Source: Chloranthus sessilifolius
Lineage: Eukaryota; Streptophyta; Magnoliopsida; Chloranthales; Chloranthaceae
DNA: 64,000 nt
NCBI GenBank assembly: GCA_021018995.1
Contig: CM037598.1
Location: forward strand, 62,700,671-62,764,670
Reading direction: 5' to 3'
The position numbers were made by a program, and so were the translations under genes. A model generated the notes under the pieces. The model was not told the origin of the DNA. It was given only the letters and a program-made list of their open reading frames with translations, and searched no databases. Below, piece by piece: positions 7,581 to 61,224 of this stretch. Numbering within the stretch: position 1 is the first letter of the stretch; the number at the start of each line of letters is the position of its first letter.

Positions 7581-8025
7581 TCAAGAGGTGTAGAGAGCAT
7601 TTCGATGGGTACTGAGGCCTCCCAATGTGCATTTTGACAGGTATTGTGACTTATTGAGAGGTTAAAGTTGATTCTCGATAGATACTGAAGCTGTACATGA
7701 GCAATTCGATAGGATTTGTGTACTTGTCGAGATATTAGGAGAGCTAGTCGAGAGGTACTGAAGGCATTTGAGTACATTTTTTACAGTTTTAGAGTACCTA
7801 TCGAGAGGTTCCATGAACCTCTCGATTTGATTTTTTTCTAAAGCCCTGAACCAGTCGACAGGGTTGAGTGAACCTCTCGAAACCTTCAACCTGCCAACCT
7901 TGCCAACCCAACTGATTTTAACTCTTCGACAGGTTGATGCAGCCTATCGAAACCTTCTCTATAATCCAATCAAAATACAAATTTGGTTGTTTTAAACCCA
8001 TCGACAACTTAATCCATCCACTTGA
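7581..8025. repeat. Phased palindrome array upstream of the E extra ORF
   Basis: About 16 copies of a degenerate palindrome with consensus AACCTSTCGASAGGTT and core TCGA (or TTGA/TCAA) occur here. Core starts: 7581, 7602, 7634, 7654, 7675, 7706, 7727, 7748, 7801, 7822, 7855, 7877, 7926, 7947, 8001, 8022. Successive distances are 21, 32, 20, 21, 31, 21, 21, 53, 21, 33, 22, 49, 21, 54 and 21 bp, mostly close to 2, 3 or 5 turns of B-DNA. Sequence between sites is not conserved. The array ends about 330 bp before the extra-ORF start at 8357. A binding-site array for a dimeric protein is an inference. Confidence 0.7.
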
Positions 8026-8356
8026 CAGCTGCTGCTCTTAGCTCCATTCCTTGTCTGCCAATTTTCCAGTTCCTTCTTCTTCCTCCACCTCATTGGTTCC
8101 AACTCCACTCACATTGTCGTTGCTCTAAGTGCTTTAATTTCACCAGGGATACATTTTGTACCTATTTGAGACTTGTGTGGTGCTGTGTACTTCAAGATCA
8201 GTCAAACCCTAGGTTTTTTGGGTAAGCTCTTCGTCAGCCTCCCCTCTGTAATTTTCTAGCATTGTAATTCCATTTTTTTAGTGTGTGTGGTTACTTTGAT
8301 TGAGCAAAGAAGTCTGCTATAGTTATTTAAAGTGATTGTGTGGATTTTTGTGACCA

Positions 8357-8990
8357 ATGGCTGACCATGAGGATACTCTAGCTAACCTGTTCAAAGCCCC
8401 TTCCAAATCTGCCCAGAAATCCACTAGAAAGTCTAGTAGACTAGCCACACAGCCTAAAGAGAGACCCACCTGCTAAGATGAAGCTCATCATGGATAAATC
8501 TGAGAAACCTAAGAAAGCTAAGAAAGCTAAAAAGGCCAAAATCACTGAGGAAATTACTGGAGAAATTATTGAGAATGTGTCAGTGCCTGAACCTAACCCA
8601 AAGGTTGAACCTGATATCCCTGTGAACCTATCTACTCCTAATGAGTTTGTCGATTCCCTAGACCTTTTCCCAGAGACAAATTTTGACCTACCTTAATTTT
8701 CTAAGGTAAAGGAGTGTAATGACACTTTGCATTATTTGGTTAAGGCAGTCCTAACACCCTTGTTGACCCCATTGCAAGAAAAATCCTACCTTAGACTGGT
8801 CAAATTGTGGTATTAGAATATCAGGAAGAAAATGAAGCCAGGGTCAACGGAGCCTACACTTGTGGTGCTGATTGATAATTGGGAGTTACTTGTGGATTAC
8901 AATGACATTGGGCTAGCAGTAGGGATTCCATCAGTTTTTGATACAACTTATGGTTTAGGAGCACCTAAGAGTGTGTCCTTTAGAGCTATG
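8357..8990 (+). pseudogene. Extra ORF of E, 5' part (split by O)
   Basis: The start ATG at 8357 follows a T-rich leader with splice-like sites. The N-terminus is Lys/Ser-rich (an 'AKKAKKAK' stretch). A one-base frameshift lies near 8476 and stops at about 8694 and 8814. The segment 'YLRLVKLWY' (about 8790) aligns with 'YPRLVRLFYQ' of D and 'YPRLVRLLYQ' of C, the core of what I take to be a plant transposon-protein domain of the type found in Athila extra ORFs. O inserted between codons at 8990. The same frame resumes at 32522, after the duplicated CTATG. Confidence 0.7.
8986..8990. other. Target-site duplication (left), CTATG
   Basis: The five bases CTATG directly precede the left LTR of O and recur at 32517-32521 directly after the right LTR. 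This gives the exact insertion point. Confidence 0.9.
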
Positions 8991-10568
8991 TGTGCGAGCA
9001 TGGATCCTCTCGAACCCGTCGCGGCGATGCACTCACGATGGAATAAAAAGTTGAGTCGCCACCCGGAGCTTTTGGTGACCTGGGAAACCTTTAAATCAAT
9101 ATTTTGAGCATCGAAGTGCTAAATATGACTCTGATTTACCGGTCTTTGCCAAAGGCTCTAGGGTAGGGGCTTCGGTTATCGATCAGGAAGGGTTTAGGCA
9201 CCCGATCAACCTGCATGTAGCGGTCTCTATCTATGGCCAAAAATAAAAGTAAATGGGTGGAGCTTCCCCTTGCCTGAAGGCAATACGGTCCTATCAAGCT
9301 TTGAGCCAAACCAAAATTTCGACGGCATAATGACTTGAATCCTTGGGCGGAGGAAACACCAAGAAGGTAGAGGAAGAGAGGGGTTAGCCGGAGCTCACGG
9401 GCCCTTGTTGCATCGTGGAAGACCTTCGCTTCAGCGTGCTCCCGATGGCTTTAGGAGGCTTAAGCAGTAGAGGAATAGGCTCTAATGCTAGGATTCGGTA
9501 GATAGGAAGTGTGGGGATGAAGCTAGGGACTAAGCTTTAACTAAAAGAGGTGATCTAATGGTTGAAAAGGGTTGAAAAGGATGATCTATGCATGCTGGAA
9601 TTTTGGTTGAAGAAATAAGAAAAGAACTTTCTCTCACTAGGGCTCTCTCTCTCCTAACTCAAGCTTTCACCCTAATCTTTTCAACCTTGCCTTTTTCAAC
9701 CCTTTAGGGAAGAGGGGGGGACTTTCTATTTATAAAGAAGAGGTGGGTTAGAGGGTTACTTAAGAGCTAATTGGTTTAGCAATTAGGTAATCCTCTATCT
9801 AAGGTTTTCTAGGTTTTTAGGATCCTAGAGGTTTGGGAAAACAATTTCAAAGGAAGATGATGGGGTGAGACCATGGGTGACTTAAGGGTTGCCAATAAGC
9901 TCAAAGGGGGTGCAACCAACCTTAAGACACCCACCTCAACCAAGGGCATGGTCAAAGGGTCAAACCAGATGGAGGAAATTCGAGCATTTACGACAGATGA
10001 ATCAGAGCTAAGTCAAGTACATATTACATACGCCCAGCTTATGCACAGTAATATTCATGAAAACCGGGGGGAATCTGAGAAGATGGGTGCTTGCGTTGGT
10101 GGCCACCTATGCTGGGCATATGTATTATATATGCTCGGCCAAATTTGGCCCAAACATGTTGGGCATATGTAATACATACGCCTGAGCAAAAGTTATCATT
10201 TTATGTGAAACTTCAATCGGCTAAAACTCTTGAACCACAACTCCAAATTGGGTGATCTTTCACTCGTTGAAAAGCTGGAGAAGTCCTCTTTCCAATGGTA
10301 TTTGGATCATCCTCAGCAGTAGTCTGTATAAAAATTTATAGCTCTCCTCCCATCAAATGCTCAGAAGGGTTTAAGTTGGGTCTGGGAAGGGATCCTAGGA
10401 TTTAGGGGTGATCTCTAAGGGTTGGGGGAATGGTTCTAATGGGTTTTAGGTGATTCCTAAAAGTCTGGTTAGATTCTCAAGGTTCAAGGGTGCCATCGGA
10501 AGCACAGGGGGTACATCTCTCTCAGAGTACAGACTGATCGGGCCTTGGGCCGAATTTGGGTGTCTACA
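8991..10568 (-). repeat. 3' LTR of O (left copy)
   Basis: It starts TGTGCGAGC and ends GTCTACA on the + strand. It is a direct repeat of 30895-32516 with scattered substitutions. A TATA box (minus strand TATAAATA) lies at 9727-9734. It is 44 bp shorter than the right LTR, matching the loss of one 47-bp palindrome unit. The copy corresponding to 31916 is half destroyed (about 10016-10038). Confidence 0.95.
10115..10182. repeat. O-type palindromes in the left LTR
   Basis: Two copies of the palindrome centred on GCGTATATATTATATACGC (here with CATATG variants) lie at 10115-10135 and 10162-10182, centres 47 bp apart. They are in U3, upstream of the TATA box on the minus strand. Confidence 0.8.
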
Positions 10569-10582
10569 GATGCCCCTCTTTG
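10569..10582 (-). promoter_or_regulatory. Polypurine tract of O
   Basis: The minus strand reads CAAAGAGGGGCATC directly before the LTR start TGTAGACACCC. This is the second-strand priming site. Confidence 0.85.
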
Positions 10583-12600: not shown

Positions 12601-12613
12601 CCACTTTTGGTCG

Positions 12614-12682
12614 GGCGTATGTAATATATACGCCTGACCGAAATGCAACAAAAAATGGCTGGGCGTATATATTATATACGCC
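12614..12682. repeat. O-type palindromes between 3' LTR and the antisense PMD gene
   Basis: Two near-perfect copies of GCGTATATATTATATACGC with flanking G and C lie at 12614-12634 and 12662-12682, centres 48 bp apart. They lie about 1.1 kb upstream of the antisense ORF at 13744. Confidence 0.85.
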
Positions 12683-13743: not shown

Positions 13744-16099
13744 ATGTCCGGTGATGAAGGGCAGGTTCCACAGGAGGGGCCCGAGATGGCCTTTGGTCCT
13801 CACGGGGAACAGTTCATTGTTTCATAGCGCTCATCTCAACCTTGGTACGAAATGCAAGGTGAAGCCGCTTGTATTGGCCTCCTGCATTGTCATCATACCC
13901 ATATGTCCAACTTTGGGATCTCTGGCTAGGTAAACAGACGAGCCCCTTTTTGTTTTGTTTTCCTTTGATGCCTTCATTATACCACCTTCCTCCTATTTCA
14001 CTGATGCCTTTTGTTTGCAGCCCCTACCACACATTATGTTCCGAGGTGGTTGGTTTGACCTTCAGCACCTCATACTTTATCTTCCCCAGGTGGTGAAGGA
14101 CCTGCTCGCCCAAGCTGGTTTTGGGGACTTCATTTCATGCCCCGCTGTGAGGGCTGACACGGCCTATCTGAAGGCCCTGATAGAGCGCTTCTGCCCCGAG
14201 ACCATGACATTTCACATGGCCCTGGCTGAGATGACCCTCACGCCCGCAGATTGGTCCATGATTACCGGGGTTCATGTTGGAGGGGTGCCAGTGATACCTG
14301 CCCGTACGCCTGATAGGGAGGAGGTGATTCTGCTGATAGGGGCCTACCCGTCCTCTGGGAACATTTGTGGTTCCGAGGTTAAGTTATCTTGGCTGGTTGG
14401 TTTGTTTGAGCCTCACTAGTTAGTGGACCTGGGCCAACCTGATGCGGCCATTTACCTCGAGCCAAAGCGTGCACTGATGCTGGCCATTATTTCTCTGCTG
14501 TTCCTCCTTGGCAAGACTCTCCTTTCAAACACCAGTGGAGGGCGGGTCTCGTTGTCCCTACTCAGTCTTATGATAAATTGGGACACCGTACATCGGTTCG
14601 ATTGGGGAGGTGCTGGCTACGCGGTGCTCATGTCTAGCTTGGTGCGAGCCGTTCTTGGGGACTCCAGTTCCTTTATGGGCTTCTGGCCCGCTCTTGAGGT
14701 AATTTATCCTTTGGTCTCAATTCATTCCCCCCTTCTTTTTTTTACATATTTGTTTTTATCTACTTGCTTTCTCAAGTGTGGGGGTATCTGCATTTCCAAC
14801 CTGGTCACCCTCTACTTCTCTCCGAAGTTCCCACATTCCCCCTTATGAGCAATTGGCATGCAAACTGCCGCCGGGACGTGGGTATGAAGCACTTGGAGTT
14901 AGGGTTGCGCCCTCAGTTTGATTTGCTGATCCCAGAGCAGGTATAACACTTTCTCTCTTCGCAAATTTGACAGCTCTTTTATGTTGTGGGTTCTGACCAA
15001 ATGTATAAATCCCTTCTCTTTTGTTGAGCAGGTCATCTTTGATCCCTACGTTGGATCCCCCTTCTGGAACCTGGCTGCAGTGGCCCCCTCTCGCCTTTTG
15101 TTAGATCGGCTCATTGTTTTCTTCTATGGGTCCTGGGCTAGGGCCTATTACTTAGGAGAGAGGGTGGTTCATCGGTATCGACCTCTCTTTGCCGTGCCCC
15201 AAGCTCTTCCACCCCGAGGGTTCTATCGAAATGCTTACAGCTCGCTTTCTCCACCACGGGGTTCCCATTGATGACCTTCTCTTTCTTGGTGGATATCAGA
15301 TGTGGTATGAGTCTCTGTCCTATCAATCCCTGCTGCCCCAATTTGTGCCTGGTGCCAACTTTTTGGCTTTGGGTGGTCCGCGATCCCAGATAATGTTCTT
15401 TCCACTTTCTATTAGCAGCCTTCCATATGATTACCTTAATTACCCTGCTTTTGAATAAAGATTGTTTCTCTCTATAGTTTGGACAGGATGATGATTCAGA
15501 TGAGGGGGATGAGGCAGCTATTCCTGGTGAGGCTACTGGTGCAGGACCTTCCAACCCTTCTCGTGTTGGTGCTTCCGGCCGTTCGCCGACTGAGGTCCAG
15601 GGAACCTTTAAGCGCTTGGATGATGCCTTTCTGTCACGTATGTGGGCCGATGTGGCTGAGAAGGCCCGCATATCTGCTAAAGCTATTCGGATTCCGCCCC
15701 CTGAGCTGATCCCTGGGGTAATCTATCCCTTGTTACCTTGCTCTTCTGTTTTCTTGGATTATGCCGATGGCCTGTGTGATTGATACCTCTCTCTTTATCT
15801 TTTTGCTGCAGGATTATGAGTCGGCTGTAAACCAAGCCGAATATTACCGTAACATTGCCGGTCTTAGGGAGGTTGAGGTGGTGAGTGAATGTTGACTGTA
15901 TCTAGTCATCCTCATATTTACTTTCTGCTTGTTTCCCCAACTGATGGCCCTTCGTGTACTTGTGCAGCGTGCTCGTGAAAAGGAGTCGTGCTCTCTGCTT
16001 GGCCGCATCTCTCAGGCATGGACCCGGGTGGGGGAGACCCGTACCTTTCAAAGCGCGACCCGACGCTGGAAGAAGTCAAAGGGGGCTGCCCAGGATTAG
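13744..16099 (+). pseudogene. Antisense gene 1 of O: plant mobile domain (PMD) protein, multi-exon, degenerate
   Basis: A spliced gene runs opposite to O's gag-pol. Likely exons, from GT/AG sites and continuing homology: 13744-13929, 14021-14698, about 14776-14940, 15032-15457, 15478-15717, 15812-15880 and 15968-16099. Exon 2 carries PMD-type features: 'FRGGWFDLQHLILYLP', 'MTFHMALAEMTLTPADWSMITG', and later 'RVSLSLLSLMINWDTVHRFDWGGAGYAVL' split by divergence. Exon 4 has 'YYLGERVVHRYR' and 'LLFLGGYQMWYESL'. The last exons are acidic and then basic/coiled-coil-like. PMD is a transposon-derived domain shared with plant MAIN-like proteins. In-frame stops in exons 1 and 2 and a frameshift in exon 4 show decay. 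The acceptor at about 14776 looks mutated. Confidence 0.75.
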
Positions 16100-16502: not shown

Positions 16503-16665
16503 GGCGTATATATTATATACGCCAGGCAAAAATTTTGAAAATTTGCCCTCGCATATATAATAGATACACCTGGCAAAAAAACTGCCATGTTGCACTGGCG
16601 TATATAATATATACACCTGCCAAATAAATTTAGAATTTTAGCTTGGCGTATATATTATATACTCC
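16503..16665. repeat. O-type palindromes upstream of the DUF7745-like gene
   Basis: There are four copies, at 16503-16523, 16550-16570, 16597-16617 and 16645-16665. Centres are at 16513, 16560, 16607 and 16655, spaced 47, 47 and 48 bp. The 26-bp intervals share little sequence. The array sits about 180 bp before the ATG at 16846. Confidence 0.9.
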
Positions 16666-16845
16666 CCATATAACTGATGCTCGACAAGCTCCTTTTAACT
16701 CACGCCCAGCCCTCTTTGCCTCACTGTTCACTCGGGCTTTGCCTTTTTGCCCCTCCTTTTCTTTCTTTTTTCTCTCTTCCCCTATTTCTTTGATAAGCGG
16801 GTCCATCGCCCTACATTGACTGAGCTTTATATAGGACATCTTTGT

Positions 16846-18362
16846 ATGTCTATGGACCCGCTTCCCGGCCCAAATTCTCATACGAGGGATGGGGTTAGTG
16901 TACTTCCCTGTTTGGACTCGGGGCCCAGTTATTTGCAAAAGTGGTGTGCTAGGTTGGCTGAGGGCGAGCTCGCTGCTCTGGATCGCCTCGGGTTATCCCG
17001 CCTTTCCTCTCTCCTTGATGTTCCTTTGTTGCCCGACCTCCTAAAGGCGGCTTTAGCGTCATGGGACCACAGGGCTCATGTCTTCAGATTTCGGTCCAGG
17101 GAGCTCACCCCAACCTTGGAGGAGCTAGCCTCTATCACCAGCTTGATGATGCATTGGAGGCATGCCAAAGTGGTGCCCAAACCGGGGTATGCAAAGGCGG
17201 TCTATGCGGTTCTTGGTTTGAAAAAGGGTTGGTATGAGAAGGGCTTCGCTGGCGGACACACTAGGTTCTCAATGAAATTCTTGAGAGAACTTTTTGGTGA
17301 CTCGAGTCTCCGAAAGTTGCCTGCTTGAGATCCTTTCAATGTGAAGGCCTTTGCCCTTTATTTGCTATCGAAAGTTCTCTTCTTTACTGGGGGCGAGACA
17401 TTTTCCCTCGGATTATGCGATGTTTTGACCGAATTGAAGGGAGGCCGCTCATTGGTGCACCTAGTCTTGGCTGAGATGTATCGAGGCTTGGATGCCTCGG
17501 CCTCGGGCCGGGTTGGGATTCTTCGCGGGAGTCCACTCCTCATTCCGATTTGGCTAGGAGAGCATTTGGCTATCATGGGGCCTGTACCGTGCTTCTGCTT
17601 GGTAAGAGGGGATGTGGCCCGGGGCTTTCTGACACGCTACTCGAGGCTGCCCCATGGGAGCATTGAAGAACTGAGCTTGTGGCTATCTGATGTGGAGCTG
17701 ATCTGGCAGCTTCCCTGGTTGGACGACACTTTTTCGATTGTACGCTCTCGGGATTGTGAGGGTATCACACTTTTGGGGTAGAATAGTAGTACCTACTATT
17801 TCCCATCTCGGGTGCTTCGTCAATTCGAATATACCCAACACGTGCCGTGCACTGTGAGGCCACCCTTTTGTTCCCTGATATTCTCTCAAGGTTCTCTTTG
17901 TGACCTAGATCGCATAGCAGCACTCTGGGAGACCCGCCAATCGGCACACATGTGTAGCTTGGTTCAGGGGGGCTTCCTCTCTTTTGATTACGTGGTTTGG
18001 CTGGCATCTGAGAGCTTACCTGCCCCTAACCCGATTTCGGTAGATGCGATAGAGACGGGCCCTGGCCATAGAAGGAAACGGTGCTCCGGACTAGAATTGA
18101 GTCTCTTTTTGCAGAGAAGCTGGCTTTGACTGAGGCTTTGGGGAAGGAGAGGGCCAGAGCCAAAATGGCGGAGGTGAGAGCTGCTACGGCCGAGAGCGAG
18201 GTTCTTCGATTGACTGGGCTCTTGACTGAGTCTCACAGTGCAGCTGACGCTTCGTGGAGGCGGCAGAAGCGTCTTCATGGTAGGTGGTTGATCGATCGAA
18301 ATGCCCGTGAGGACTCTCTTCTTGTAGAGATCAGTGCTTTAAAGCATGGTTCCTGCCCCTGA
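16846..18362 (+). pseudogene. Antisense gene 2 of O: DUF7745-like protein with coiled-coil tail
   Basis: One long frame runs from MSMDPLPGP at 16846 to about 18080 with two stops (TGA about 17326, TAG about 17779), then shifts into a frame carrying a charged, heptad-like tail to 18362. The body resembles the plant DUF7745 family: 'HRAHVFRFRSRELTPTLEELA' near residue 80, 'ALYLLSKVLFFTGGE', a 'LAEMYRGLD' helix, 'LLIPIWLGEHLAI', then 'YYFPSRVLRQFEYTQ'. The tail reads 'LTEALGKERARAKMAEVRAA' and onwards. The function of the family is unknown. A longer start at 16747 is open but Phe/Leu-rich. A TATATA at 16828 is too close to the ATG to be its TATA box. Confidence 0.7.
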
Positions 18363-29875: not shown

Positions 29876-30037
29876 GGCATATGTATTATATATGCCTGAC
29901 CAAAACTTAGCAGATTTGGCTGGGTGTATATATTATATACGCCTGACTTAAATCTGGGGAATTTGATTGGGCGTATATATTATATATGCCTGAATATTTC
30001 AAGGGATTTTTGGCTGGGCATATATATTATATACGCC
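29876..30037. repeat. O-type palindromes in the 5' leader
   Basis: There are four copies, at 29876-29896, 29923-29943, 29970-29990 and 30017-30037. Centres are exactly 47 bp apart three times (29886, 29933, 29980, 30027). The intervening 26 bp are mostly unique, with a weak 'gatttggctg' echo. Confidence 0.92.
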
Positions 30038-41696: not shown

Positions 41697-42802
41697 ATGT
41701 GTTCCCGATTTATTTCCTTGATAACAGCAGCGAAGATCTTCTTAGGTTTATCTTCATCAATCTTCTCAGTTCCGTGATTAGCTAGACCTCTAATTCAAGA
41801 GTCCTTCTAATTTTGTATATGGCAGTAGAATTTCTCTCGTGATCAACAGCAGCAATAACAGCAATAGGAAAGCTTCTATTTATACAATCGTAAATCACGA
41901 TTCTTCTTCTTTATCTGAAAATCGTAAATCACGATTTTGTATCTTTCATAGCTTTCATTCTCAAGATGATTCTTCAGAATGATTCTTTGCTTTCTTTGTA
42001 TCGCTTCATTATTTTTAACGTATTTTCTTTGGGGAATTGTAAATTACGATTTCTCATTTTGTCTGTTAGTATTGCGCTCAATCGTCTTTTACGATTTTCT
42101 GTCTCTTAGTGCTTAGCAAATTGTCTTTAACGCTCAATCGCCTTTCTTACTGCTTAATGAGTTCATTTTCATAAATAACACTTTGACTCTATTTTACTAT
42201 TTTTTCTTAATATCTACACATCAGTATCTTATTAGTAGCACATCAGTATCTTATTGATGTGTTCCCGATTTATTTCCTTGATAACAGCAGCGAAGATCTT
42301 CTTAGGTTTATCTTCATCAATCTTCTCAGTTCCGTGATTAGCTAGACTTCTAACTCAAGAGTCCTTCTAATTTGGTATATGGTGGTAGAATTTCTCTCGT
42401 GATCAGCAGCAGCAATAACAGCAAGAGGAAAGCTTCTATTTATACAATCGTAAATCACGAATCTTCTTCTTTATCTGGAAAATCGTAAATCACGATTTTG
42501 TATCTTTCATACCTTTCATTCTCAAGACGATTCTTCAGAATGATTCTTTGCTTTCTTTGTATCGTTTCAGCATTTTTAACGCATTTTCTTTGGGGAATTG
42601 TAAATTACGATTTCTCATTTTGTCTGTTAGTATCGCGCTCAATCGTCTTTTACGATTTTTTGTCTGTCAGTGCTTAGCAAATTGTCTTTAACGCTCAATC
42701 GTCTCTCTTACTGCTTAATGAGTTCATTTCCATAAATAACACTTTGGCTCTATTTTACTATTTTTCCTTAATATCTGCACATTAGTATTTTATTAGTAGC
42801 AA
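41697..42802. repeat. Tandem duplication of the D promoter region
   Basis: A unit of about 558 bp beginning 'tgatgtgttcccgattta' occurs twice (about 41697 and 42256) with a few per cent difference. Each carries a TATA box (minus TATAAATA at 41877-41884 and 42437-42444) and four palindromes. Confidence 0.9.
41886..42657. repeat. D-type palindromes in U3
   Basis: There are eight copies of AATCGTAAATCACGATT or close variants (arms AATCGT and ACGATT), at 41886-41902, 41920-41936, 42035-42051 and 42080-42096, and in the duplicate at 42446-42462, 42481-42497, 42596-42612 and 42641-42657. The first of each set is one base upstream of a TATA box on the minus strand. Spacing is 33-35, about 115 and 45 bp; no helical phasing is evident. 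Confidence 0.85.
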
Positions 42803-42861
42803 ACTAAGTCCTAGCATCACTAAGTTAAGGGTGATAAAATGATAAATTATGTGACTGACCA

Positions 42862-47666: not shown

Positions 47667-47685
47667 TTTCCTGCCCTTTTCTACA

Positions 47686-47787
47686 AAAATTAACCAGCAA
47701 TACCATTAATTAAACTCTAAATTCCATGTATTGAATAGATATTTCATGTAGATACCCTTCCATTCTATTAAAATCATTCCCTTACCT
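47686..47787 (-). other. Probable 5'-UTR intron of the D extra ORF
   Basis: On the minus strand a donor AAG|GTAAGG at about 47787 and an acceptor TTTGTAG at about 47686 lie within the leader, 20 bp before the ATG. This suggests the extra ORF is its own spliced transcription unit. Confidence 0.5.
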
Positions 47788-48003: not shown

Positions 48004-48157
48004 ATTAATATATAGGTCCTATTTTCAGTGATGACTTACTAAGCCGGTCACCACATGAGTTTCACCTAGAATCGTAGGTTGATTCTAGCCTTTACTTTCA
48101 ATAAGAATCGCAATCGCTGTGTTTCGCCATGATGATCAATCGTAAATCCATACGATT
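48004..48157 (-). promoter_or_regulatory. Putative promoter of the D extra ORF
   Basis: A TATA-like stretch (minus 'ctatatattaataaaa', 48004-48016) lies about 340 bp before the ATG. A D-type palindrome (AATCGT...ACGATT, 48138-48157) lies about 120 bp upstream of it, with weaker half sites between 48050 and 48220. Confidence 0.5.
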
Positions 48158-50020: not shown

Positions 50021-50027
50021 CTTGACT

Positions 50028-50515
50028 TGATATATACTATGTATACCTTTTAATTAGGTCTTAACCTATTACAAGTGCATAATGAAAATTATACTACTAG
50101 CAAATGATCATTCCCAGGAGAAAGTTTGTTATCTCTTAAGAATTTTATTTATATATTTATATTCAAATTCTTATTTCAAAAACTTCGATTTATCTTTACG
50201 ATCTAATCTACTGGAGAAATATGTGTAAAAGAATTGTTTGTATTAATCTAAATTGTAGAAAATAAATCTTAATCCTCAAACTTTAGATTATGGTAGTCAA
50301 TTATAATCTTTTGCTCTCAGATATTTATGAATTTAAACAGTACCGTTACACTATATCTCTAGTTTCCTAGCATTGGTCGTCAATCAATACTAAAATCCTA
50401 TCAATACAGATTTAATCTAATCAACAACTTCCTAAAATCTGGGCATCAATCAAACCTTAGAAAACTGAAGATGGAACAGTAAAAATGATTACACTAATCT
50501 GCAAATTCCAACCTG
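50028..50515 (-). repeat. 5' LTR of D, truncated
   Basis: A direct repeat of 40788-41275, about 90% alike by eye. It stops at 'ccaacctg', where CACTACGTG begins at 50516. The remaining 1.6 kb of this LTR, including U3, is not seen in the window. Confidence 0.85.
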
Positions 50516-51280
50516 CACTACGTGAAAAAGCTAAAAAAACCATTGCCCTAAACAGTAGTTTTTTCAAAAAACCACTGTCTTTGATAGTGGTTTTTTTTCA
50601 AAAAATCACTGCCCTAAACAATTGTTAAAAAATGAGTGGTTTTTTTTTACCACTATACAAGACAGTGGTTTATGAACTTCAACAACAACTGCTCTTAACA
50701 GTCATAGAAAAAACCACTGCTTTTTTCCAACTATTTAGGGCAGTGGTTTTTTTATGCAATTTTTTTTTAAAAAAAAATTATTTAAAAAAACAAATTACAT
50801 CGACAATTTTTTATGCAAATTTTTTTAAAATAATATTTTTTTAATGCAATTTTTTTTATGCTTTTTGTAATACTTCTTTTTTTATGCAATTTTTTAATTC
50901 TTTTTTTAATGCTTTAAAAAAAATTATATAAAGAAAAACAGTCATTAATCTCATATTTCAACACATCCATTCAACTCAAATGTAAATAATTCAATGCCAT
51001 TAATAAAAAAAATAGAAACCCAATTATTTTATTCAAACAAAAGGTTTCATCTCAACCTTTCAAATCATTCAAACATTCTAAACTCTACACGCCCAATCCT
51101 TTTATTCAAATAGAAAGAAGAAGAAAAGAGAGTGAACAATATAAGGACTCCATGGCCCATTTTTAAAATAAAAGAACAAAAAAAATTAAATTAGCCTCGC
51201 CTCTCCTACCAAGTGTCCCCGTCCCCTAGTGATCCATTTGAGGTGAGCTTCAAATTGAAAAGTTTTGCCTGAAATAAAAA
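50516..51280 (+). repeat. CACTA terminal segment, copy 1
   Basis: A terminal CACTACGTG, at least six AACCACTG/CAGTGGTT sub-terminal motifs in both orientations (able to form hairpins), a low-complexity A/T stretch, then unique sequence ('cattcaactcaaatg', 'tttgaggtgagctt') shared with copy 2. Confidence 0.7.
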
Positions 51281-52433
51281 AGAAAACATCATTAAACTGA
51301 AATATTGATCTTTCCAAAATCCTAGTGGGGAAACAACTTGATCTTTCCAAAATCTTAGAAGTATCTATTACAATCACGACTATTATATTCGGTCCATACA
51401 TATAGGAGTCTATATAAATATCTGGTTATCCTAGACAACCACAAATTTTCTCATTTTTTACTAAAGATCTCCAACAAAGAACCCACAAAAGTTGGGGCAT
51501 TTAGTTGGAGTTAAAAAAATGAGTTACAACACAAAGAAGACTACCTGCCTTCTGGACAAAGAAAATAGACATGTCCATCCAAGTTAATTGTAACAAGGTA
51601 CAGAATGAAGTGGATGTACACACAACTAGGGCAGGGACATTGTTTACCATTTTTTTCTTTGTTTAATATCTCACTTTGGCCTCTCAAAAGCTTATTTTTT
51701 AATATAGACACCACCACTTACATTACCCTAGGTAAATGAAGATTGAAATGATAATTAAATGTAATCAGATTGTGTTATGAGTAGTAAACATCATGCAAAT
51801 GTGTCACCGCTCTGCTACTTTAAATAACTTTGCTACATACTATGCAAACATAGGAACTGATCTTTAACTTGTAAACAAAATTCTAATCTTGTTGGATGGT
51901 CCATTCTGACATTACATAAGCAAGAGAATTCTCATGGCCTTTAGCTGGCACGGTAATAAGCAAATCAATAAATTTTTTAACATTTGGGGCACTCAGATGG
52001 ACCTGCACACAAAAAAGGAATAGGATAGATGATCGATCTAGAGACTGATTTTAGAAGAGCTTTGGTAACAACCTATTTTGACGTAGTGATAAGCATTTGG
52101 TAATAAATTGTTTCTTGCCATCTGACTCCCGCAGAAACTAAAAAAGCTTAAAATGAGGTAAAAATTTGGAAGCTGCCCCATCCCCGCTGCTAGATTCTCG
52201 CTTTTGCAGGAGGGAATTGGTCAACTCTGCCCCAAACAGGGCCTCAATTATTTCAGGAAATGTAGGCTTCATATTCAAAAAAATTGGTCTAGGCCCCATT
52301 TAATTAAGTACAGGGTCTCTGTTAGCAGCTTCTATCAGAGAGCTCTTATAGAATGTTTCCCAATATTAATAGTCCAAGAGAACTGCTTACTCAAGTAGCC
52401 TAAAAGCAGGGGGCATAATTCCTTGATCATTAC
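51281..52433. other. Unassigned interior of K, left
   Basis: AT-rich sequence with no recognised domain. It may include further introns or exons of the captured gene downstream (minus strand) of 52434, but I cannot identify them. Confidence 0.35.
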
Positions 52434-52988
52434 CTTGGGGAGCAGTCCAAAAAGTGCCTAGGAAGGTTACGATGTAGCGCGGAGTAATAAGGAGTGGCAT
52501 GGCAGGGCATAAGGAAAAGTGTACTCTTCAGTTTTCTGTTAAGAGCCTCTTTCGCTAAAAAATTCATAACATCTTCGCTTCCTCTCTGTTTAGCATGCTT
52601 GCAGGTAAGAATCAAACAAAGCATTTATGTCAAGAAAAGAAAAGAATAACAGAAGAAAATGGAAATCAAATTTCTCCATTACGGAAATAAACAAAAAGGA
52701 AATTTAAAGAAGTCTGTATGGAATTGATACTTGGTAAATGAAAGGGGGAAAAATAACTTCATGTTTGCTACCAAGAACTGCTTTACCTGATGAATCAAGC
52801 TCATATACAAGGCCATTGGAAGATTGGTTGCAAGAAGGAAGATGATAGACAACTGCATTCTCGAAGGACATCGAATCCAGAAATTTGAAGATCTTTTCAT
52901 TCTAGTTTCTGAAGAATCAAGATTTTCCACTGCTGCTAAAGAATATCCAGAAAACATCAAAGCTATGGGAAGCACTGGCAAGACAAAC
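52434..52988 (-). pseudogene. Captured fragment resembling PIG-B / GPI mannosyltransferase 3
   Basis: Two exons on the minus strand: 52988-52787 and 52585-52434, joined by a 201-bp intron with AG/GT borders (donor CAG|GTAAAG, acceptor AAACAG|AGAGG) and in-frame phase 0. The first encodes 'RFVLPVLPIALMFSGYSLA' and 'SIIFLLATNLPMALYMSLI'; the second 'RGSEDVMNFLAKEAL' and 'FLMPCHATPYYSALHRNLP'. Both match the GT22-family GPI-anchor mannosyltransferase PIG-B as I know it. No stop lies in the spliced stretch. A donor-like AAG|GTAATG follows the second exon, but later exons are not found. This is capture of a gene piece by the transposon, not a complete gene. Confidence 0.7.
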
Positions 52989-53418
52989 CTGTAATTCAAG
53001 TATTCTTAGAAGGTTAGCAAGATGTCAAAATACATTGAAGCAAAAGCACACAATCTCTGAATAAATTAAGTATTCTCAGCCTAAAAAAGCATCAAGTTTA
53101 AGTGCAAATTCATGGGTAAGGCAAATTCATGCAAGCATCAAGCAATATTTAGTAAAATTACATAGATACCTCAGATTTCTGTTTTTGAATATCATAAAGA
53201 CATTAATAAATGTGGAGACCCTTAGAGGAGGATTATTGCTTCCTATTCTCTCAACCTTCCCTTTCGGTGGAAGTACCTCCAACTTCGATAGCAACTGTTT
53301 ATAGGAAAAATAACTCTTTCAAGTCTCCAGAATACAAAATGGTGCATTTTCATTGGGGCATGCAATATAATCAAGCAACCACACTCTCCACCCAAAGAAA
53401 TATGACGTAATCTTCAAC
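52989..53418. other. Unassigned interior of K, right of the gene fragment
   Basis: It contains an open + strand stretch (53210-53410, MWRPLEEDYCFLF) of unknown origin. Upstream exons of the captured gene would be expected here on the minus strand, but I do not recognise any. Confidence 0.35.
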
Positions 53419-54225
53419 CACTACGTGAAAAGGCCAAAAAAACCACTGCCTTAAATAGTGGTTTTTTCAAAAAACAACTGTCTTTGATAATGGTTTTTTT
53501 CAAAAAAACCACTGCCTTAAATAGTTGTAAAAAATGGAGTGGTTTTTTTTTACCACTACACAAAACAGTGGTTTATGAACTTCAACAACAACTGCTCTTA
53601 ACAGTCATAGAAAAAACCACTGTGTTTTTTACAATTGTTTAGGGCAGTGGTTTTTTTATGAAATTTTTATTTTTAAAAATAATATATTTAAAAAAAAAAA
53701 AATTACGTCGACAATTTTTTATGCAAATTTTTTTAAAATAATATTTTTTTTAAAGCAATTTTTTTTAATGTAATTTTTTTTATGCTTTTTTAATGGAATT
53801 TTTTTAATGTAATTTTTTAGTACTTTTTTTAATGCCTTAAGAAAAATTATATAAAGAAAAAAAGCTATTAATCTCATATTTAAACACATCCATTCAACTC
53901 AAATGCAACTCATTCAATGCCATTAATAAATAAAATAGAAGCCCAATTCTTTTATTCAAATAAAAGATTGCATCTCAACCTATGATCCAACCTTTCAAAT
54001 CAGCCAAACATTTTAAACTTGACATGCCCAATCCTTTTATTCAAACAAAAATAAGAAGAAAAAAATGAGATTTAACAATCTAAAAGCCTCATGGCCCATT
54101 TCCAAAATACAAGGGAAAAAAATTAAATTTATTTCGCCTCTCCTGCCAAGTGTCCCTCCTAGTGATCCGTTTGAGGTGAGCTTGAAATTGGAAAGTTTCA
54201 CCTAAAATCAAAAGGAGAACATCAT
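53419..54225 (+). repeat. CACTA terminal segment, copy 2
   Basis: A direct copy of 50516-51280, starting CACTACGTGAAAAGG, with the same sub-terminal motifs and trailing unique sequence but several indels in the A/T stretch. It is an independent related insertion or an internal duplication. Confidence 0.7.
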
Positions 54226-55903
54226 TAAATTAAGAATATTATTTCAAAATCTCGACTAGCTACATAAATAAGAGTACGCAATTTTATGTGGATGTACAAC
54301 AGCTGTCCTAATATAATACTAGTAGGTCCCACGTGCTATGCACGTGTGGAGAAACACAAGTGAGAGCAAGGGGTGAGAGCTGGTATAGGATAACTGACTT
54401 ATGCAGAATCTAGATAATGCACAGAAGTTAAAAAGGAATCTACACACATTCATCCATATAGTTCATGTCAGGATTTTTTTACTATAAGAACTAAATACCT
54501 TGTACACAGATCATAATCCACCTTCACCAAGCTTATTTTCAATGCAAATTTTTCCAGTTGCAGCTGCTGTTGTACCAAATTCAAATTGCAAGGACCCCAT
54601 ACTACTCATCTCAACAAAATCTGCACAAAGTTAACAAATATTAGAAATTGAAACAATATTGTAGGCAAGGAGATATAATAGTCTAAATTTGGCCATATTG
54701 AACTACCCCAGATACATTTTTGGGTTAGTGGTTTCACTCTATAAAATCAATTCCTTTAAATTTTATATCTGTAAGCATATGTATATTTGGATAAAAACAT
54801 GGGAAATGGATAAAAATGATTGATAGTTTTACATTTTCTTATGGATTCTTAGCTTGCAGAAATCTACAAGATTCCTTTGTTTTCCATCACTTCCCACAGT
54901 TTGATTAGTCATATTAATAGTCTAGAAAAATTGCAAAAATATATTTGGTAATGCACTAATGCCCGACTTAAGGAGACGTTTAATGCTATTTTCCAAGGAC
55001 TCAACAAATCAAAATTCCAAAAGGGAGCAATTAATCTTACCTGTCTGATTTGATCTTAAAACAAAAATTCTACAATTACTATTACATGACCATATAATTA
55101 ACCATATCTAGACCCCTTTGGGATAGAGAGGGTAAGGAAAACTGTGAATTCCCAAACCCATCAGAACTGCCCTGCAAATTCCATGATCAGGCACTTTAAT
55201 CCAAGGTGTTAGATGGAACTTAAACTATTGTCATGACCCCTTTGGGTTGTTCATGACAATAGTTCTGTACTCACAAAACACATGCTGCCTTGCGATATTC
55301 TTAAAAGGATTCACATTTCCGAAAATATCTTTAACGACGTACTTTTGGTTTTTGATGCCATTTGCACAAATTAAAAAATAGAAATTGATGAAAAACCAGA
55401 TAAAAAAAAAATCCTGATACTGTGCCCAATTCGAATTGCAATGACAGAATTATCATACACTCACATTTATTAAATATAATAGAGTTAGAAATAACAAAAG
55501 GGTTTAGCATCCCAAAATATGCTAATAAAAAGGGTTTAGCATCCCAGGATAAGGCAATTATGTTGAGTGTCCAACTAATTTAACAGAAACAACATAAAAC
55601 ATGCCTCTAGAATATTCTAATAAAAAGTCACAATAGAAAAAACTACTATTGAAAATTTAATAGAGTGCTGACAAAAGTAAAAGGTAAATAAGAGATAAAC
55701 CTATGCTTAATAGGGGTGTGTGTGTGCCTGTGTGGATGTGAGGATTTAAAGTCCACACTACCACCTCATGTGATCCTTTTAAGTGTGTGTATGTGGGTAG
55801 GTGTCCAAAACTTACATTGCTTTTCTTCTCTCACGCAAGAATGTGATCTCACGCAAGAGAAATCTCAAAAACATTCTCTCCCTGAGTAGTCCTTATCAAA
55901 ATA
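54226..55903. other. Unassigned sequence between CACTA copy 2 and element C
   Basis: AT-rich with no coding domain. A short GC-rich inverted sequence, CCACGTGCTATGCACGTG, lies near 54329. A local duplication, 'gggtttagcatccca', occurs near 55500 and 55534. Otherwise nothing is recognised. Confidence 0.4.
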
Positions 55904-58405
55904 TGTGACAGCCCGGATTTCTGCACCCCGAAACCCGTGCCATCAGCACGATCATCTTGACCGTGCCCCTTAGCTAATCACGGAACATTGGCATATCAAG
56001 CATAAAATAAAATAGTAAATGAAACTGCGGAATTTAAATCTATATAAAAGTATTTCTCAAAAGACAGTTCTACCCTCATGCCTTAGCATGAATGGAGAAC
56101 CGATCCGAACCATCGATGATAGCAAATCATCACGGATGGTTCGCCCCAAATGAATAATCTCAATTTATACATGTACGTTGTTTAGCCAAAACAAGGCTTG
56201 ACATACCAAGCCGTATAAATCTCTATCCAAAAGCCCTCAAAGCGACACAACGGAGTCCTCTAGAAGAAGTCCTCAGGAGGTGGCTCCAACTCTTCACCGG
56301 CCGCAAGGTCCGACTCACTGGGGTCAGCGTCTCCTGAAGCCTCGACAGCTGCTAGTAGTGGCCCTGCAACGTATAGTCTATAGGGTGAGCTACATCCTAG
56401 CTCAATAGGGCACAAAACACAGTTGAACATATAAATTATCACTCACATATATACCATGATATGCCATGCATGATGTGTCTATGCAGTTACTGATGAAAAC
56501 AATTAAAAGCATTACATTTTACTGGTAGTTACTTATGTCTTTATTTATTCATGAATGATACTGAAAAGCTCTAACGCAAAACTTAAACTTTCAACTTAAG
56601 CAATCCCCGAGCAATATAGCATCGAGCCCCGATGAGATACCCATCATTGTCATCTATATAGACACTTTTAACGTATTCCCTGGGAATACAAATAGTACCC
56701 AAGCCCCTTTCCCTTGGGGATTGGTGGATGGGTTTCACTAGTCTCAATCAACACCCCTGGGGTGTGCTTACTGTGTAAGGATAAGCCTCCACACTGGCGT
56801 ACGGTTTTGCCGCCGTATCGGTCACGGGTATCCTGCCGTGTCAGTCGTGGATATCCCGCCACATCGGTGGGGTACCCTATCAAACCTCAAATAACAAAAG
56901 TATCAGGTGCTTTACATATAGTTATTCACCGTGTAATTGTGCTATCTTATATCAGTTAGGCCCTATCAAACATGATTCAATCTTGGATACATCCCTGGGA
57001 TGTATCCATTCACTTACATCACACCTGATGCTCTTATCTCTTTACTTCCTCATCCCCTGGGGATGGTTCATTATAATTACTCTTATGGATGTCACGCACA
57101 CACACTTTTCACAATTCTTAAGCAATAAAAACATTTTGAATTGAATTCTATATCACTACATACATGCTCTTGCAAAATAAAGTACATGTTCAAGGTGTTC
57201 CCTACCTCAAGTCTTCGTTCGATCAATGCATCAAGGTCCCACGTGGCTCCTTGTGCACTAGCTCACACGTACCACCTATGGTACCACATAACATGTGAAA
57301 CACATCACTAAAGATGCAATGAAGGAGGTCCAAGACCCTCCATGAAGCTTAAAGTCAAACTCAAAAGTCAACATAAACTAGCCTAGTCGATTAATCGAAC
57401 TCCAAAATCGATTAATCGAAAGTCAATATCGATTAATCGATTCTCAAATCGATTAATCGAGATTCCCATTCGATTAATCGAAACCCAATTCGATTAATCG
57501 AAATTCTCTACTCTATCCTATCGATTCTCAATTCGAGTAATCGAATTTCCAAAATCGATTAATCGATCCCAAATCGATTAATTGAAATTCTAAATTGATT
57601 AATCGAATTCCCATTTTGATTAGTCGATTTCTCCAAGCTGTTTTCTTTCCTCCACTAGAGTTCACTGTAGGTTCCCAGTCGATCAATCGATTTCCAATTC
57701 GATTAATCGAAATCTAAAGTCGATTAATCGAAACTCAATTCGATTAATCGAGATCGGGGTCCTCTGACTTTTCAACTTTTTGGCCAATTTTGATTAATCG
57801 AAACCTAATTTCGATTAATCAAAATTGCCAGATTCAGCCCCCTTTTGGTTGTTCTTCCTAATCTCTTCCTTTACTTTTTTCCTCCATTTCTCTAAACCTT
57901 TGTCCTACATTTCACACTATTTCTAACCACTATTCACCCTTTCAATCCATGCATTTAAACTACAAAAATCTTACCTTCAATCAATCTCAAATTGATTTCA
58001 ATCAAGTGGTTGGAAAGGCTAGGGTTCCAGCTTTTGCTTGAATAGATTCCTCGCGTTGAATCGGTCTCTTTAATGCTAGAATCCCCCCTCCAATCACACA
58101 ATAACTCTTGTTCAATCTCTTTACTCCTCTCTCTTCTTTACTCCTCTCTCAACAACCAAAATACAGATTTTTAGGGTTATTAAACCCTTTTATCTATCCC
58201 CTCTCTTGTGTGTTGAGCACATACACCGCGATAGGTGTACGTGACTTCACATTCCCATCACACACCACATAAACACTCAACCCATCACATCTCATCGGTT
58301 CATCACACTCTATGCTAACCCTTGATCTCCTAATTGATCAAACTTGTGACCAATCAGGTACAGATCCCGAGGTCACTATTTAACATGATTTTTCTGGATA
58401 TTAGA
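55904..58405 (-). repeat. 3' LTR of C
   Basis: About 2.5 kb. The outer end is TGTGACAGCCCGGATT on the + strand. The inner end is placed at the sequence after the polypurine tract (minus TCTAATATCC, perhaps a mutated TG start). A 'gataaaaggg' box on the minus strand (about 58187) followed by a 'gagagaggag' leader is a possible promoter. The palindromes would then lie downstream of it, in R or U5. I cannot settle this from one LTR. Confidence 0.65.
57387..57822. repeat. Phased TCGATTAATCGA array in the C LTR
   Basis: About 17 copies of the 12-bp palindrome, 10 of them perfect. Starts: 57387, 57408, 57429, 57449, 57470, 57490, 57533, 57555, 57574, 57595, 57616, 57679, 57699, 57720, 57740, 57790, 57811. 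Neighbouring starts are 19-22 bp apart, with gaps of 43, 63 and 50. The 8-9 bp between copies differ from copy to copy. Confidence 0.92.
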
Positions 58406-58921: not shown

Positions 58922-60244
58922 CTAAGCGAGGTAGCGGTGGTAGTCCGTCAGGTAGATGTAGTGGAGGGTGTGGAACATCAAGAAGTCCATCCTCCGATTC
59001 ATCCGCTCGTTGTTGGCCTCCATGCGAGCCAACACGTCGTCAATGGTAGGACCGGATGGGGCGGCGCGCCGGCGATGTGATGAGGTGGGTGTAGCGGGCG
59101 CGGAGTGAGCGGGCGGTGTCGGTGACGCCGTGGTATGAGAGGTAGCCCTCTCTACTGATGGCTCGGCCGGGTGTGCCCCACCCATGGGTGGGTCCTGCTG
59201 TGGTGGTTTGGGTGGTGGCGGTGCGACTGCTGCTGATACTGCTGCTGGAGCGGGACCCGGAGCCGGTAGGGTCCGCTTGAGTAGGCTATAGCTACGGGTC
59301 CATGAAGACTTGGAGAATGTCTTCACACAATCCGTAGCCCTCACCTCGTGAGGTGAGATAGTGTAGGAGGGATCGCTGGAGTAGCACTCCAACATGCTGG
59401 AGATGAGGCGAGCGTAGGGCATCTTCTCCTTGGGCCGGAGGTTGCCCTTCATCAGTTTGCCCTTAATGTACCTCATCCCCTCGAGGACGAGCATGGTGGC
59501 GTCAAACCACTGGCCATAGAAGGCCGCGTAAAGTGCCTGTTGCACTTTTTCCATGTGCTCCGTGTCGTGGCGCATCGGGTATAGATTACACTTGATTATA
59601 GAATCAAGCATCCGCATGTAGTGGGGAAGGTCAACCCTCTTGATGGAGGATCCCGACCCCTTCTTACCATTGGTCATGCGGGTCATGACGTCCTCGAATC
59701 GAGGTTCCTCCTCAAAGGGTGGAAATAGGGTGGTCTCAGGGGTAAAGTCGAGGTAGCACTCAAGCACCTCGTGTATGTGACGACGAGTGATCGTGTACTC
59801 TCGACCCTCGATGGTGGTCTTGATCACATCGTCAGTCGGGCCGTCCACAAGCCCTTGGTAAAGTAATCTCACCAATCTAGGGTAGTAGGAACCCCGGATT
59901 GGTTTGAGAAGGTTGCCGAGATCGGCATTGTTAAGGTAATTATGAGCCCATTGGGTCTCGCTCGGTACATCGGGATTTGTGAAAAGGGTAGGGTCAATGA
60001 GGTACTCGACCTCAAAGGTCTTTGTGGCCCACCATTCATTTGGTTGCACCACGTTAGTGGGTGGTGGGGGCATGGGGGTGGACTCGCGCGAAGATGCGCT
60101 CATCGAACCGGAGGTGGTCTCCGATGCCGACGGTGATTGAGTCCTCACCGGCGATGGGGTAGGTGGTGGTGGCGCGGCGTTCATACGCCGAACCGGGAGC
60201 TTAGAGGTTGCCTTCTTCGAAGACAATCGGGTCTTAGGCGGCAT
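58922..60244 (-). CDS. Extra ORF of C, 440 codons, uninterrupted
   Basis: I chose the ATG at 60244 (MPPKTRLSSKK). The frame is open to 60469, but that part looks like a leader and lies just after the TATA box. Residues 1-65 are basic, then Pro/Ser-rich. About 75-300 form the conserved domain: 'WWATKTFEVEYLIDPTLF', 'SYYPRLVRLLYQGLV' (about 119-133), 'YTITRRHIHEVLECYLDF', 'LYAAFYGQWFDATMLVLEG' (about 228-246), 'MPYARLISSMLECYS'. Then come a Pro/Ala-rich linker and a short charged helix ('DDVLARMEANNERMNRRMD'). The domain matches the Athila-type extra ORFs of E and D and, I think, the putative plant transposon-protein family. No catalytic residues are recognised. It is the only intact extra ORF here. 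Confidence 0.75.
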   Translation of the reverse strand: MPPKTRLSSKKATSKLPVRRMNAAPPPPTPSPVRTQSPSASETTSGSMSASSRESTPMPPPPTNVVQPNEWWATKTFEVEYLIDPTLFTNPDVPSETQWAHNYLNNADLGNLLKPIRGSYYPRLVRLLYQGLVDGPTDDVIKTTIEGREYTITRRHIHEVLECYLDFTPETTLFPPFEEEPRFEDVMTRMTNGKKGSGSSIKRVDLPHYMRMLDSIIKCNLYPMRHDTEHMEKVQQALYAAFYGQWFDATMLVLEGMRYIKGKLMKGNLRPKEKMPYARLISSMLECYSSDPSYTISPHEVRATDCVKTFSKSSWTRSYSLLKRTLPAPGPAPAAVSAAVAPPPPKPPQQDPPMGGAHPAEPSVERATSHTTASPTPPAHSAPATPTSSHRRRAAPSGPTIDDVLARMEANNERMNRRMDFLMFHTLHYIYLTDYHRYLA

Positions 60245-60472
60245 TTTAGGTGAAATAACAAAACCTAGGGCTTTATCTAACTCAAATTGAAAGAAAAAGC
60301 AAATTCTAGGGTTTACCGTGGGTTTTGGAGGCGATACAACTTGAATTCGAGCCAAAAAAACCAACGGAGATGCAACCCTTGGGCGCCGGATGGTCAGAGA
60401 AGAAGAAGAAGATGAAGCGCCCAAAAATTCCAAGCTGAAATGACTTCGAATGGGGAATGAAATCCCCAAATT

Positions 60473-60482
60473 TTTATATATA
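60473..60482 (-). promoter_or_regulatory. TATA box of the C extra ORF
   Basis: The minus strand reads TATATATAAA, 10 bp downstream of the nearest palindrome (60492-60503) and about 230 bp before the chosen ATG. The leader between is T/C-rich. Confidence 0.65.
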
Positions 60483-60491
60483 GGCCCCGGC

Positions 60492-61224
60492 TCGATTAAT
60501 CGAAATTCAGAATCAATTAATCGAGATTCAAAACTAAGTTAAGCCGCACAAAATTGATTAATCGATTTCCCAAATCTATCAATCAAAAGTCAAATTCGAT
60601 TAATCGAAAACATTTCGATTAATCGAAATCGTATCCGTTTAAAAATTTAAGTTTTAGAGCTCACTGGCGCGAGCCAGTCGATTAATCGAAATCCATTTCA
60701 ATTAATCGAAATTTCAAAATCGATTAATCAAAATTCACTTCGATTAATCGAAATCGTGCAGTAACTTCCAAAAATTTTTGAATTCCTTAAGTTATTCGAT
60801 TAGTCGAACTATGGTTCGATTAATCAAAATTGTTTCTCTGTCTTAGAATTTTCAAGGTTCCTTTAAGCAAATCGATTAATCGAACTTTCAGTTCGATTGA
60901 TCGAAATCTCAAATCGATTAATCGAAACCTCCTCGATTAATCGAATTTTCATTAATTCATTCCTAATTTCTTCTAACATTCCCAGTATGTTCGATTAATC
61001 GAACATACGGTTCGATTAATCGAATTCCCAATTCGATTAATCGAATTCCCAAAATCGATTAATCGATCCCAAATCGATTAATCGAAATTATAAATCGATC
61101 AATCGAAATTGTATTCTGTGTCTGTCCTAACTCTTATCCAAATGTCCAATCACTGGCATAATCGAACAAAATCGATTAATCGAAATTCCAAATTGATTAA
61201 TCAATTTTAATTTTGATTAATCGG
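60492..61224. repeat. Phased TCGATTAATCGA array upstream of the C extra ORF
   Basis: About 25 copies of the 12-bp palindrome with few mismatches. Starts: 60492, 60513, 60554, 60575, 60596, 60615, 60678, 60698, 60720, 60740, 60797, 60817, 60872, 60893, 60914, 60933, 60991, 61012, 61033, 61055, 61074, 61095, 61172, 61193, 61213. Within clusters the step is 19-22 bp. Between clusters it is 41, 63, 57, 55, 58 and 77 bp. The array lies directly upstream of the TATA box. Confidence 0.92.

Follow-up and report, generated by a model that had tools for sequence, protein, structure and literature searches.

The window analysed here is a 64-kb stretch of C15 (62700671-62764670) from the 2.17-Gb genome of Chloranthus sessilifolius. 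It carries all or part of four long terminal repeat (LTR) retroelements, designated E, O, D and C, each with an extra open reading frame (ORF). Arrays of short palindromes were found in LTRs and upstream of extra ORFs, in the window and in related elements elsewhere in the genome. The palindromes mostly changed with the extra ORF, and in several families a TATA box lay at a nearly fixed distance past the last of them. We lean towards the view that the palindromes form operator arrays for the promoters of the LTR and of the extra ORF, with the extra-ORF protein as their probable ligand. Athila, Tekay and Tat are used as presumed lineage names, in part taken from the original prediction on this window, which gave C as Tekay.

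The original prediction had assigned a palindrome to each of the four elements, and all four rose far above shuffled sequence. The C motif TCGATTAATCGA had 41 matches in the window at up to two mismatches, against a mean of 1.90 in 100 shuffles. The E motif AACCTSTCGASAGGTT had 28 matches at up to three mismatches, against a mean of 0.69 (100 shuffles). With both strands listed, the O motif gave 28 rows (shuffle mean 0.00) and the D motif 15 rows (shuffle mean 0.13), each for 100 shuffles. A de novo search of the window for perfect palindromes brought out the C and O words prominently; the other repeated ones were GGGCCC-type minisatellite words and one word with three copies. The E and D motifs were absent from the repeated perfect palindromes listed for the window, and only mismatch-tolerant searches revealed both. 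The idea of a palindrome proper to each family was sound for C and O, whose palindromes are strong and perfect, but E has a degenerate dyad of the TCGASAGGTT type (four sites upstream of its extra ORF at up to two mismatches) and D a dyad with a spacer. The features of the four elements are as follows.

57387-57822, palindrome array in the C 3' LTR, found by motif search
58922-60244, minus strand, C extra ORF, 440 residues, open, with a match to Transposase_32 below the cut-off
60474-60482, minus strand, promoter TATA box for the C extra ORF, 9 nt past the last palindrome
60492-61224, C array of TCGATTAATCGA in the spacer that separates pol from the extra ORF, 24 sites with two mismatches or fewer
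61488-63999, minus strand, C pol pieces of gypsy type (reverse transcriptase, RNase H, integrase), continuing past the window
1275-1993, E-type palindromes, with flanks matching the E LTR in inverted orientation
7575-8001, degenerate E palindromes AACCTSTCGASAGGTT, upstream of the E extra ORF
32486-32890, plus strand, E extra-ORF piece to the right of nested element O, a homologue of the C extra ORF
36531-38732, plus strand, E 3' LTR (approximate limits), with palindromes at 36904-37465
8985-10568, minus strand, O 3' LTR, with palindromes at 10116-10181
12615-12681, O palindromes upstream of the first antisense extra ORF
13934-14848, plus strand, pieces of the first O extra ORF, plant mobile domain (7.5e-13 and 0.0014)
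16504-16664, O palindromes, four copies in 47-48-nt steps, upstream of the second antisense extra ORF
16699-18129, plus strand, pieces of the second O extra ORF, with weak matches to the plant mobile domain and DUF7745, under the cut-offs
29877-30036, O palindromes, four copies in 47-nt steps, between the 5' LTR and the minus-strand ORFs
30889-32516, minus strand, O 5' LTR, with palindromes at 31917-32130, ~90% (90.1%) identical to the O 3' LTR
41886-42657, D palindromes AATCGT-N5-ACGATT in two tandem copies of ~560 nt, in the LTR by position
46554-47705, minus strand, pieces of the D extra ORF, a homologue of that of C (1.7e-8, tblastn)
48138-48157, single imperfect D site with an 8-nt spacer, read by eye, upstream of the D extra ORF

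Placement in the LTR and again upstream of the extra ORF, predicted for all four elements, was borne out for C, O and E, but D had only the one imperfect upstream site. The C motif in the window was confined to its two arrays. The array of the C 5' LTR lay outside the window, at L005:3880-4344, and the two C LTRs were 94.4% identical. A second C LTR pair aligned over its arrays at 92%. The O cluster at 29877-30036 was additional to those named before. For E, a stretch left of the window (L007:3532-5748) was 88% identical to the 3' LTR and held 10 palindrome sites. This is likely the E 5' LTR and a better candidate than 1275-1993, where the E-type copies are probably not those of E's own 5' LTR. 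The D promoter region (41694-42809) is a tandem duplication of ~560 nt, 95% alike, with palindromes and a TATA box in each copy; the TATA box lay 1 nt past one site in both.

Three of the four extra ORFs, those of C, E and D, are homologous and so mostly represent one protein family with diverging sites, a correction to the original prediction; that of O has a plant mobile domain. The C extra ORF matched Transposase_32 (PF20167) at 5.9e-8 over the frame 58922-60538, with 33.2 bits against a curated cut-off of 45. The E and D extra ORFs matched the profile weakly, with 17.2 and 16.1 bits against the same cut-off. The C protein and the E extra ORF aligned at 33% over 97 residues (6.8e-13, tblastn). 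A protein database search with the C extra ORF gave no match at E <=0.001 among the 8000 candidates scored, which were those with the most shared words. Element O is nested. Its pol lies on the minus strand and its two extra ORFs on the plus strand, with one strong match to the plant mobile domain and the others weak; a Pfam scan identified its pol as gypsy-type reverse transcriptase and RNase H.

The pol genes of further elements (G, H, L7, P and F), like that of E, were related to the gypsy-type pol of C and O. A C-like pol was combined with a 3' extra ORF homologous to that of C in C, G, H and L7. The H palindrome, CGCTCGAGCG, was present in the 5' LTR, ahead of the extra ORF and again in the 3' LTR, with arrays ~19 to 28 kb right of the window. 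The G palindrome, CTCGCGCGAG, had 4, 2 and 3 copies at the same three places (at most one mismatch). Terminal arrays and the region ahead of the extra ORF carried TCAATCGATTGA in both P1 and P2, and TCGATYRATCGA in F. The L28 locus had the E motif six times upstream of its extra ORF and 11 times in an LTR-like region, stretches of which were 68-78% like the E LTR. Pairwise alignment of LTRs placed the arrays within them in C, E, G, H and O; the LTR assignment in D, P and F is by position only. The pairs aligned over arrays in C, G, H and O were 89-96% identical (H 96.1%, G 89.2%), and these differing identities suggest that the copies were inserted at different times. One C copy, in L009, had no internal array. 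Its extra-ORF match began ~10 nt past a pol match and there was no match to the pol tail, which looks like a deletion.

There were 13,856 first-look candidates for PF20167 in the genome, and all 150 matches scored were over the cut-off. Twelve extra-ORF loci were picked by hand from these 150 for varied frame length and contig. Nine had a palindrome array, all of family K, and three (L029, L034 and L040) had none. The K palindrome, ACGGACGTCCGT, lay upstream of the extra ORF in 9 of the 11 K loci, which are copia elements, and K alone among the families here has a CGG-CCG core. The K extra ORFs of L029, L031, L034 and L037 scored 60.9-67.8 bits against PF20167, over the cut-off of 45; the open pieces of L032 (34.4 bits) and L039 (26.8 bits) were under it. 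Pfam recognised copia domains in L029 (RVT_2, 4.4e-61), L036 (gag_pre-integrs and rve) and L034 (Pol_BBD); L036 alone among these three has an array. In L030, L031, L035 and L037, a copia RNase H was identified by eye, the L031 piece being without a Pfam match. In the array-less K loci, the extra ORF adjoins reverse transcriptase (L029) or Pol_BBD (L034) coding, so that the spacer, the seat of the array, is missing. At L034:572-2449, Pol_BBD and Transposase_32 lie in one open frame, with neither spacer nor array; a zinc knuckle match there was not significant.

The families were compared in a specificity matrix, which is mostly descriptive since the motifs were mostly found in the loci scored. 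In it, 20 of the 25 regions upstream of extra ORFs held at least two sites of their own lineage, where 0.00-0.14 were expected per kb. The five exceptions were D, L029, L034, L040 and L7, the last of which had no matrix column. Each of the 17 LTR or LTR-like regions held 2 to 19 own sites, a count that includes X, whose word was defined on X itself. Ten of the 17 belonged to pairs aligned over the palindromes (three C, two each of G, H and O, and one E). Genome-wide, close pairs of sites numbered 110,381 for C, 18,336 for H and 1914 for K on each strand, and reversed controls gave 0. One K pair, at C1:23873255, lay 296 nt upstream of a PF20167 match found in a separate search (C1:23872411-23872959, minus strand). 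Among the matches listed, this was the only one on C1 in the range covered by the listed K pairs.

The identities of pol and extra ORF between families came from partial tblastx alignments, some shorter than 100 residues, and from few families. C and H were 80% alike in pol and 34-36% in the extra ORF, and their palindromes were unrelated. C and G were 67-71% alike in pol and 30-37% in the extra ORF. G and H had a pol identity of 68-71% and the closest extra ORFs among C, G and H (44%); their palindromes cross-matched. P1 and P2 (pol 63%, extra ORF 67%) had one palindrome. E and P (pol 61-65%) had different palindromes, and their extra ORFs gave no tblastx match at E <=0.001 with 400 nt of E compared. 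P and F (pol 56-60%, extra ORF 37-38%) had words that differed and partly cross-matched. E and L28, with extra ORFs 67% alike over 128 residues, had the same palindrome. When the extra ORFs were at least 53% identical and arrays were present on both sides, the palindrome was shared (the C copies of the window and L011, P1 and P2, E and L28, and the K loci with arrays). At 44% or less, the palindromes mostly differed, the clear exception being C and F. Across these families, palindrome identity mostly tracked the lineage of the extra ORF and not that of pol. The co-evolving regulator and site of the original prediction gained support in this way from elements outside the window, but the overlap between C and F stands against it.

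The TATA boxes were located relative to the arrays. Upstream of the extra ORF, the distance from the last palindrome to the TATA box was 8 nt in G and 9 nt in H, P2 and two copies of C. It was also 9 nt in P1, using the site at 883 and not a later site with two mismatches. In four K loci (L030, L033, L037 and L038), the last palindrome ended 10-11 nt before TATAAA, or 9-10 nt if TTATAA is taken as the start. A TATA box 8-11 nt past the last palindrome was thus present in five of the eight families scored, with E and L28 counted as one. The chance of finding TATAWA 7-11 nt downstream, estimated in six of these regions, was 1.3% (77 of 5776 positions). The LTR promoters, D excepted, had no fixed spacing: the TATA box lay ~720 nt past the palindromes in four of five C LTRs and 262 nt in that of L011, 228-267 nt in H, 281 and 381 nt in O, and 147 nt in the G 3' LTR. 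None was seen in the part of G 5', P2 5' and F 5' that was examined. The commonest site-to-site steps were 19-23 nt in C, H, P and K, i.e. two turns of DNA, and 47 nt in O.

Every palindrome word named contains CG. Changes of CpG to TpG or CpA made up 89 of 230 mismatches in C, 15 of 46 in K, 4 of 12 in H and 5 of 30 in P. This suggested that many sites were probably methylated after insertion, and a switch sensitive to methylation could make use of words bearing CG.

The closest published layout is the repeated-motif design of Sireviruses, which the original prediction did not name. In these Ty1/copia elements, palindromes particular to each element precede the TATA box of the LTR (Bousios et al. 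2010, PMC2829016). The motifs also occur upstream of the envelope-like gene where it is present (77 of 79 linker copies), were reported as Sirevirus-specific, and have a CGG-CCG core in all but Tnd-1; that of Usier is GTCGGACGTCCGAC (PMC2829016). Among Pseudoviridae, only Sireviruses are said to carry an envelope-like gene (PMC3599292). The likeness lies in the palindromes of LTRs verified by pairing (C, E, G, H and O), with a TATA box further on in C, H, O and the G 3' LTR, and in the copies upstream of the extra gene in the 20 regions counted above. Unlike the Sireviruses, C, O and the elements with pol related to theirs have gypsy-type pol, and copia domains were found only in the K loci; the cores differ from CGG-CCG except in K, and the palindrome mostly tracks the extra ORF. 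The K loci appear to combine the two Sirevirus traits of a copia pol and an extra gene. The two groups are linked by the gypsy-type extra ORFs, those of O apart, which match the same Pfam family as the copia K extra ORFs. Palindromes in maize Sirevirus LTRs have reportedly been described as well, which we mention as background and not as evidence.

We interpret the palindromes as dyad-symmetric operator sites, arrayed at a shared spacing of two DNA turns. Such arrays would control two promoters per element, that of the LTR for genomic RNA and an internal one for the extra ORF. Lineages differ in their palindrome, and within one element the LTR and internal copies agree. Since the palindromes change mostly with the extra ORF and not with pol, the extra-ORF protein is the most likely binder: a putative Transposase_32 protein, or in O a plant-mobile-domain protein, presumably acting as a dimer. 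Once bound, it might work in an autoregulatory or anti-silencing loop, and activation, repression and counter-silencing are all possible.

Several observations weigh against this interpretation, besides the descriptive nature of the matrix and the partial alignments noted above. The C and F words overlap, TCGATTAATCGA being one form of TCGATYRATCGA. C sites with two mismatches or fewer number 9, 5 and 4 in the F regions, although C and F are only 35% alike in pol and at most 39% in the extra ORF. The F word also cross-matches P and X. This suggested that likeness of words may arise without like extra ORFs. L040, with an extra ORF 44% identical to that of L28 and 54% to that of E, had no array upstream, and the palindromes of L7 were sparse. 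The D sites at 41886-42657 lay outside the alignable D LTR pair (40783-41267 with 50023-50515), and the D upstream region held no site with the LTR-type 5-nt spacer at up to two mismatches. LTR pairs over the arrays were sought in P2 and F, and none aligned. The TATA spacing was not seen in the upstream regions of E, F, L28 and D. Nor was a TATA box at that spacing found in K loci L032 and L039, and L031, L035 and L036 had only TAAAAA.

Some of these observations fit host transcription factors as the binders. Each family would then exploit a host factor for tissue or stress expression, and the internal array would copy the LTR enhancer. The position of the arrays upstream of TATA boxes is enhancer-like, and the overlap of the C and F words without like extra ORFs is as expected from a host factor. 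Sirevirus motifs compared with the PLACE database recovered mainly stress-related sites, and LTR palindromes persist in Sireviruses without the envelope-like gene (4 of 13; PMC2829016). The latter favours a factor not encoded in cis, and it too counts against the extra-ORF protein. On the other hand, a host factor fails to predict either the switch of palindromes at 80% pol identity or the sharing between E and L28, and no one class of host factor would be expected to yield all the words. We regard host factors as an unlikely explanation, although one of some weight.

The arrays might also be functionless by-products of tandem repetition, arising by unit expansion in unconstrained spacers and spread between LTR and interior by template switching or gene conversion. 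Part of the arrays were indeed detected as tandem repeats. Against this, the motif columns were 85-100% alike and the flanking columns 31-73%, with one at 85%, a contrast inflated by the choice of sites with up to three mismatches. Dyad symmetry also recurs, and the TATA spacing is common to several families. Such an origin is improbable. It is very improbable that the palindromes act at the RNA level, whether by forming hairpins or dimerisation sites used in packaging or by giving hairpins that yield small interfering RNA: hairpins of maize elements do correlate with small RNAs (PMC10760457), but loopless perfect palindromes of 10-12 nt would give short stems, and in the promoters with 8-11-nt spacing the sites are upstream of the TATA box and so outside that transcript.

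Binding by the extra-ORF protein can be extended to a broader proposal, which we put forward tentatively. Transposase_32 may be a self-serving, sequence-specific regulator common to copia, Athila-type and Tekay-type elements. A major divergence or replacement of the gene would be accompanied by a rewriting of the LTR and internal palindromes into a code of the lineage's own, confining activation or protection to that lineage. If gene and sites were exchanged between pol lineages, new codes would spread, which could also explain the overlap between C and F.

VANDALs are DNA transposons. Their VANC proteins had been offered as a parallel in the original prediction. VANC is element-encoded and recognises short, dense, family-specific motifs in non-coding DNA, and protein and target diverge together (PMC5735166, PMC10398659). 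The VANC21 motif, YAGTATTAY, is no palindrome, and VANC carries DUF1985 and DUF287 (PMC5735166). The elements here likewise combine an encoded protein with family-specific motif arrays in non-coding regions, and to this extent the parallel was apt. Unlike VANDALs, however, they are retroelements with palindromic motifs, and their extra ORFs, O's apart, match PF20167 in place of DUF1985 and DUF287. These two domains were not found in the 30 proteins scanned; one non-significant DUF1985 match fell on an O piece (E 0.083). By these tests, VANC is a functional parallel and not a relative.

Retand elements have antisense ORFs between pol and the 3' LTR that encode TRP28, with predicted DNA binding, nearby tandem repeats and a proposed regulatory role (PMC11963269). 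O also has antisense extra ORFs in this position and repeats nearby, but its ORFs match the plant mobile domain and not TRP28. The uses of 'palindrom' listed for that article were in its references. In sunflower, the 3' extra ORF of Athila has partial similarity to Transposase_32, and the Tekay extra ORFs are 5' and without a known domain (PMC11728184). Unlike the latter, those of C, G, H and L7, which have C-like pol, are 3' and homologous to that of C. The plant mobile domain of the O ORFs is shared with MAIN and MAIL1, which are, in contrast, host proteins. A short promoter motif marks the genes dependent on them and has been attributed to an as yet unnamed transcription factor (PMC7156037).

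The layout and its family specificity are already published for Sireviruses (PMC2829016). As far as the searched literature shows, the layout in gypsy-type elements, the Transposase_32 family common to copia and gypsy extra ORFs, the spacing to the TATA box and the way in which palindromes follow the extra ORF are new. A search mostly of journals readable without subscription found no published palindrome arrays tied to an extra ORF in Athila or Tekay. If the extra-ORF proteins bind their own palindromes, a protein family without an assigned role, borne by many retroelements of this genome, would gain a function. The literatures on Sirevirus repeated motifs and on gypsy-type extra ORFs would merge, and expression of retroelements in a silencing host would become testable with a few proteins and short DNA probes. 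The palindromes would also mark the lineage of solo LTRs. If Transposase_32 is such a regulator, it would be a retroelement counterpart of VANC, and the Sirevirus motifs and envelope-like gene would be explained together.

An LTR-pair element at 50516-54240 has no extra ORF, and no palindrome arrays were seen in it; it was the single element of this kind examined, outside any survey. It is short, with two LTRs of ~0.8 kb that are 81-83% alike and start ~2.9 kb apart, and it adjoins a D-type LTR piece ending at 50515. In O, a minisatellite with 57- and 108-nt units lies inside long open frames (27921-28538); its minus-strand translation is proline-rich. At L005:8236-8673, an array of TCGATCGATCGA lies in an LTR-like stretch, another part of which is 68% like the G LTR. 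This is possibly another palindrome switch in a related LTR.

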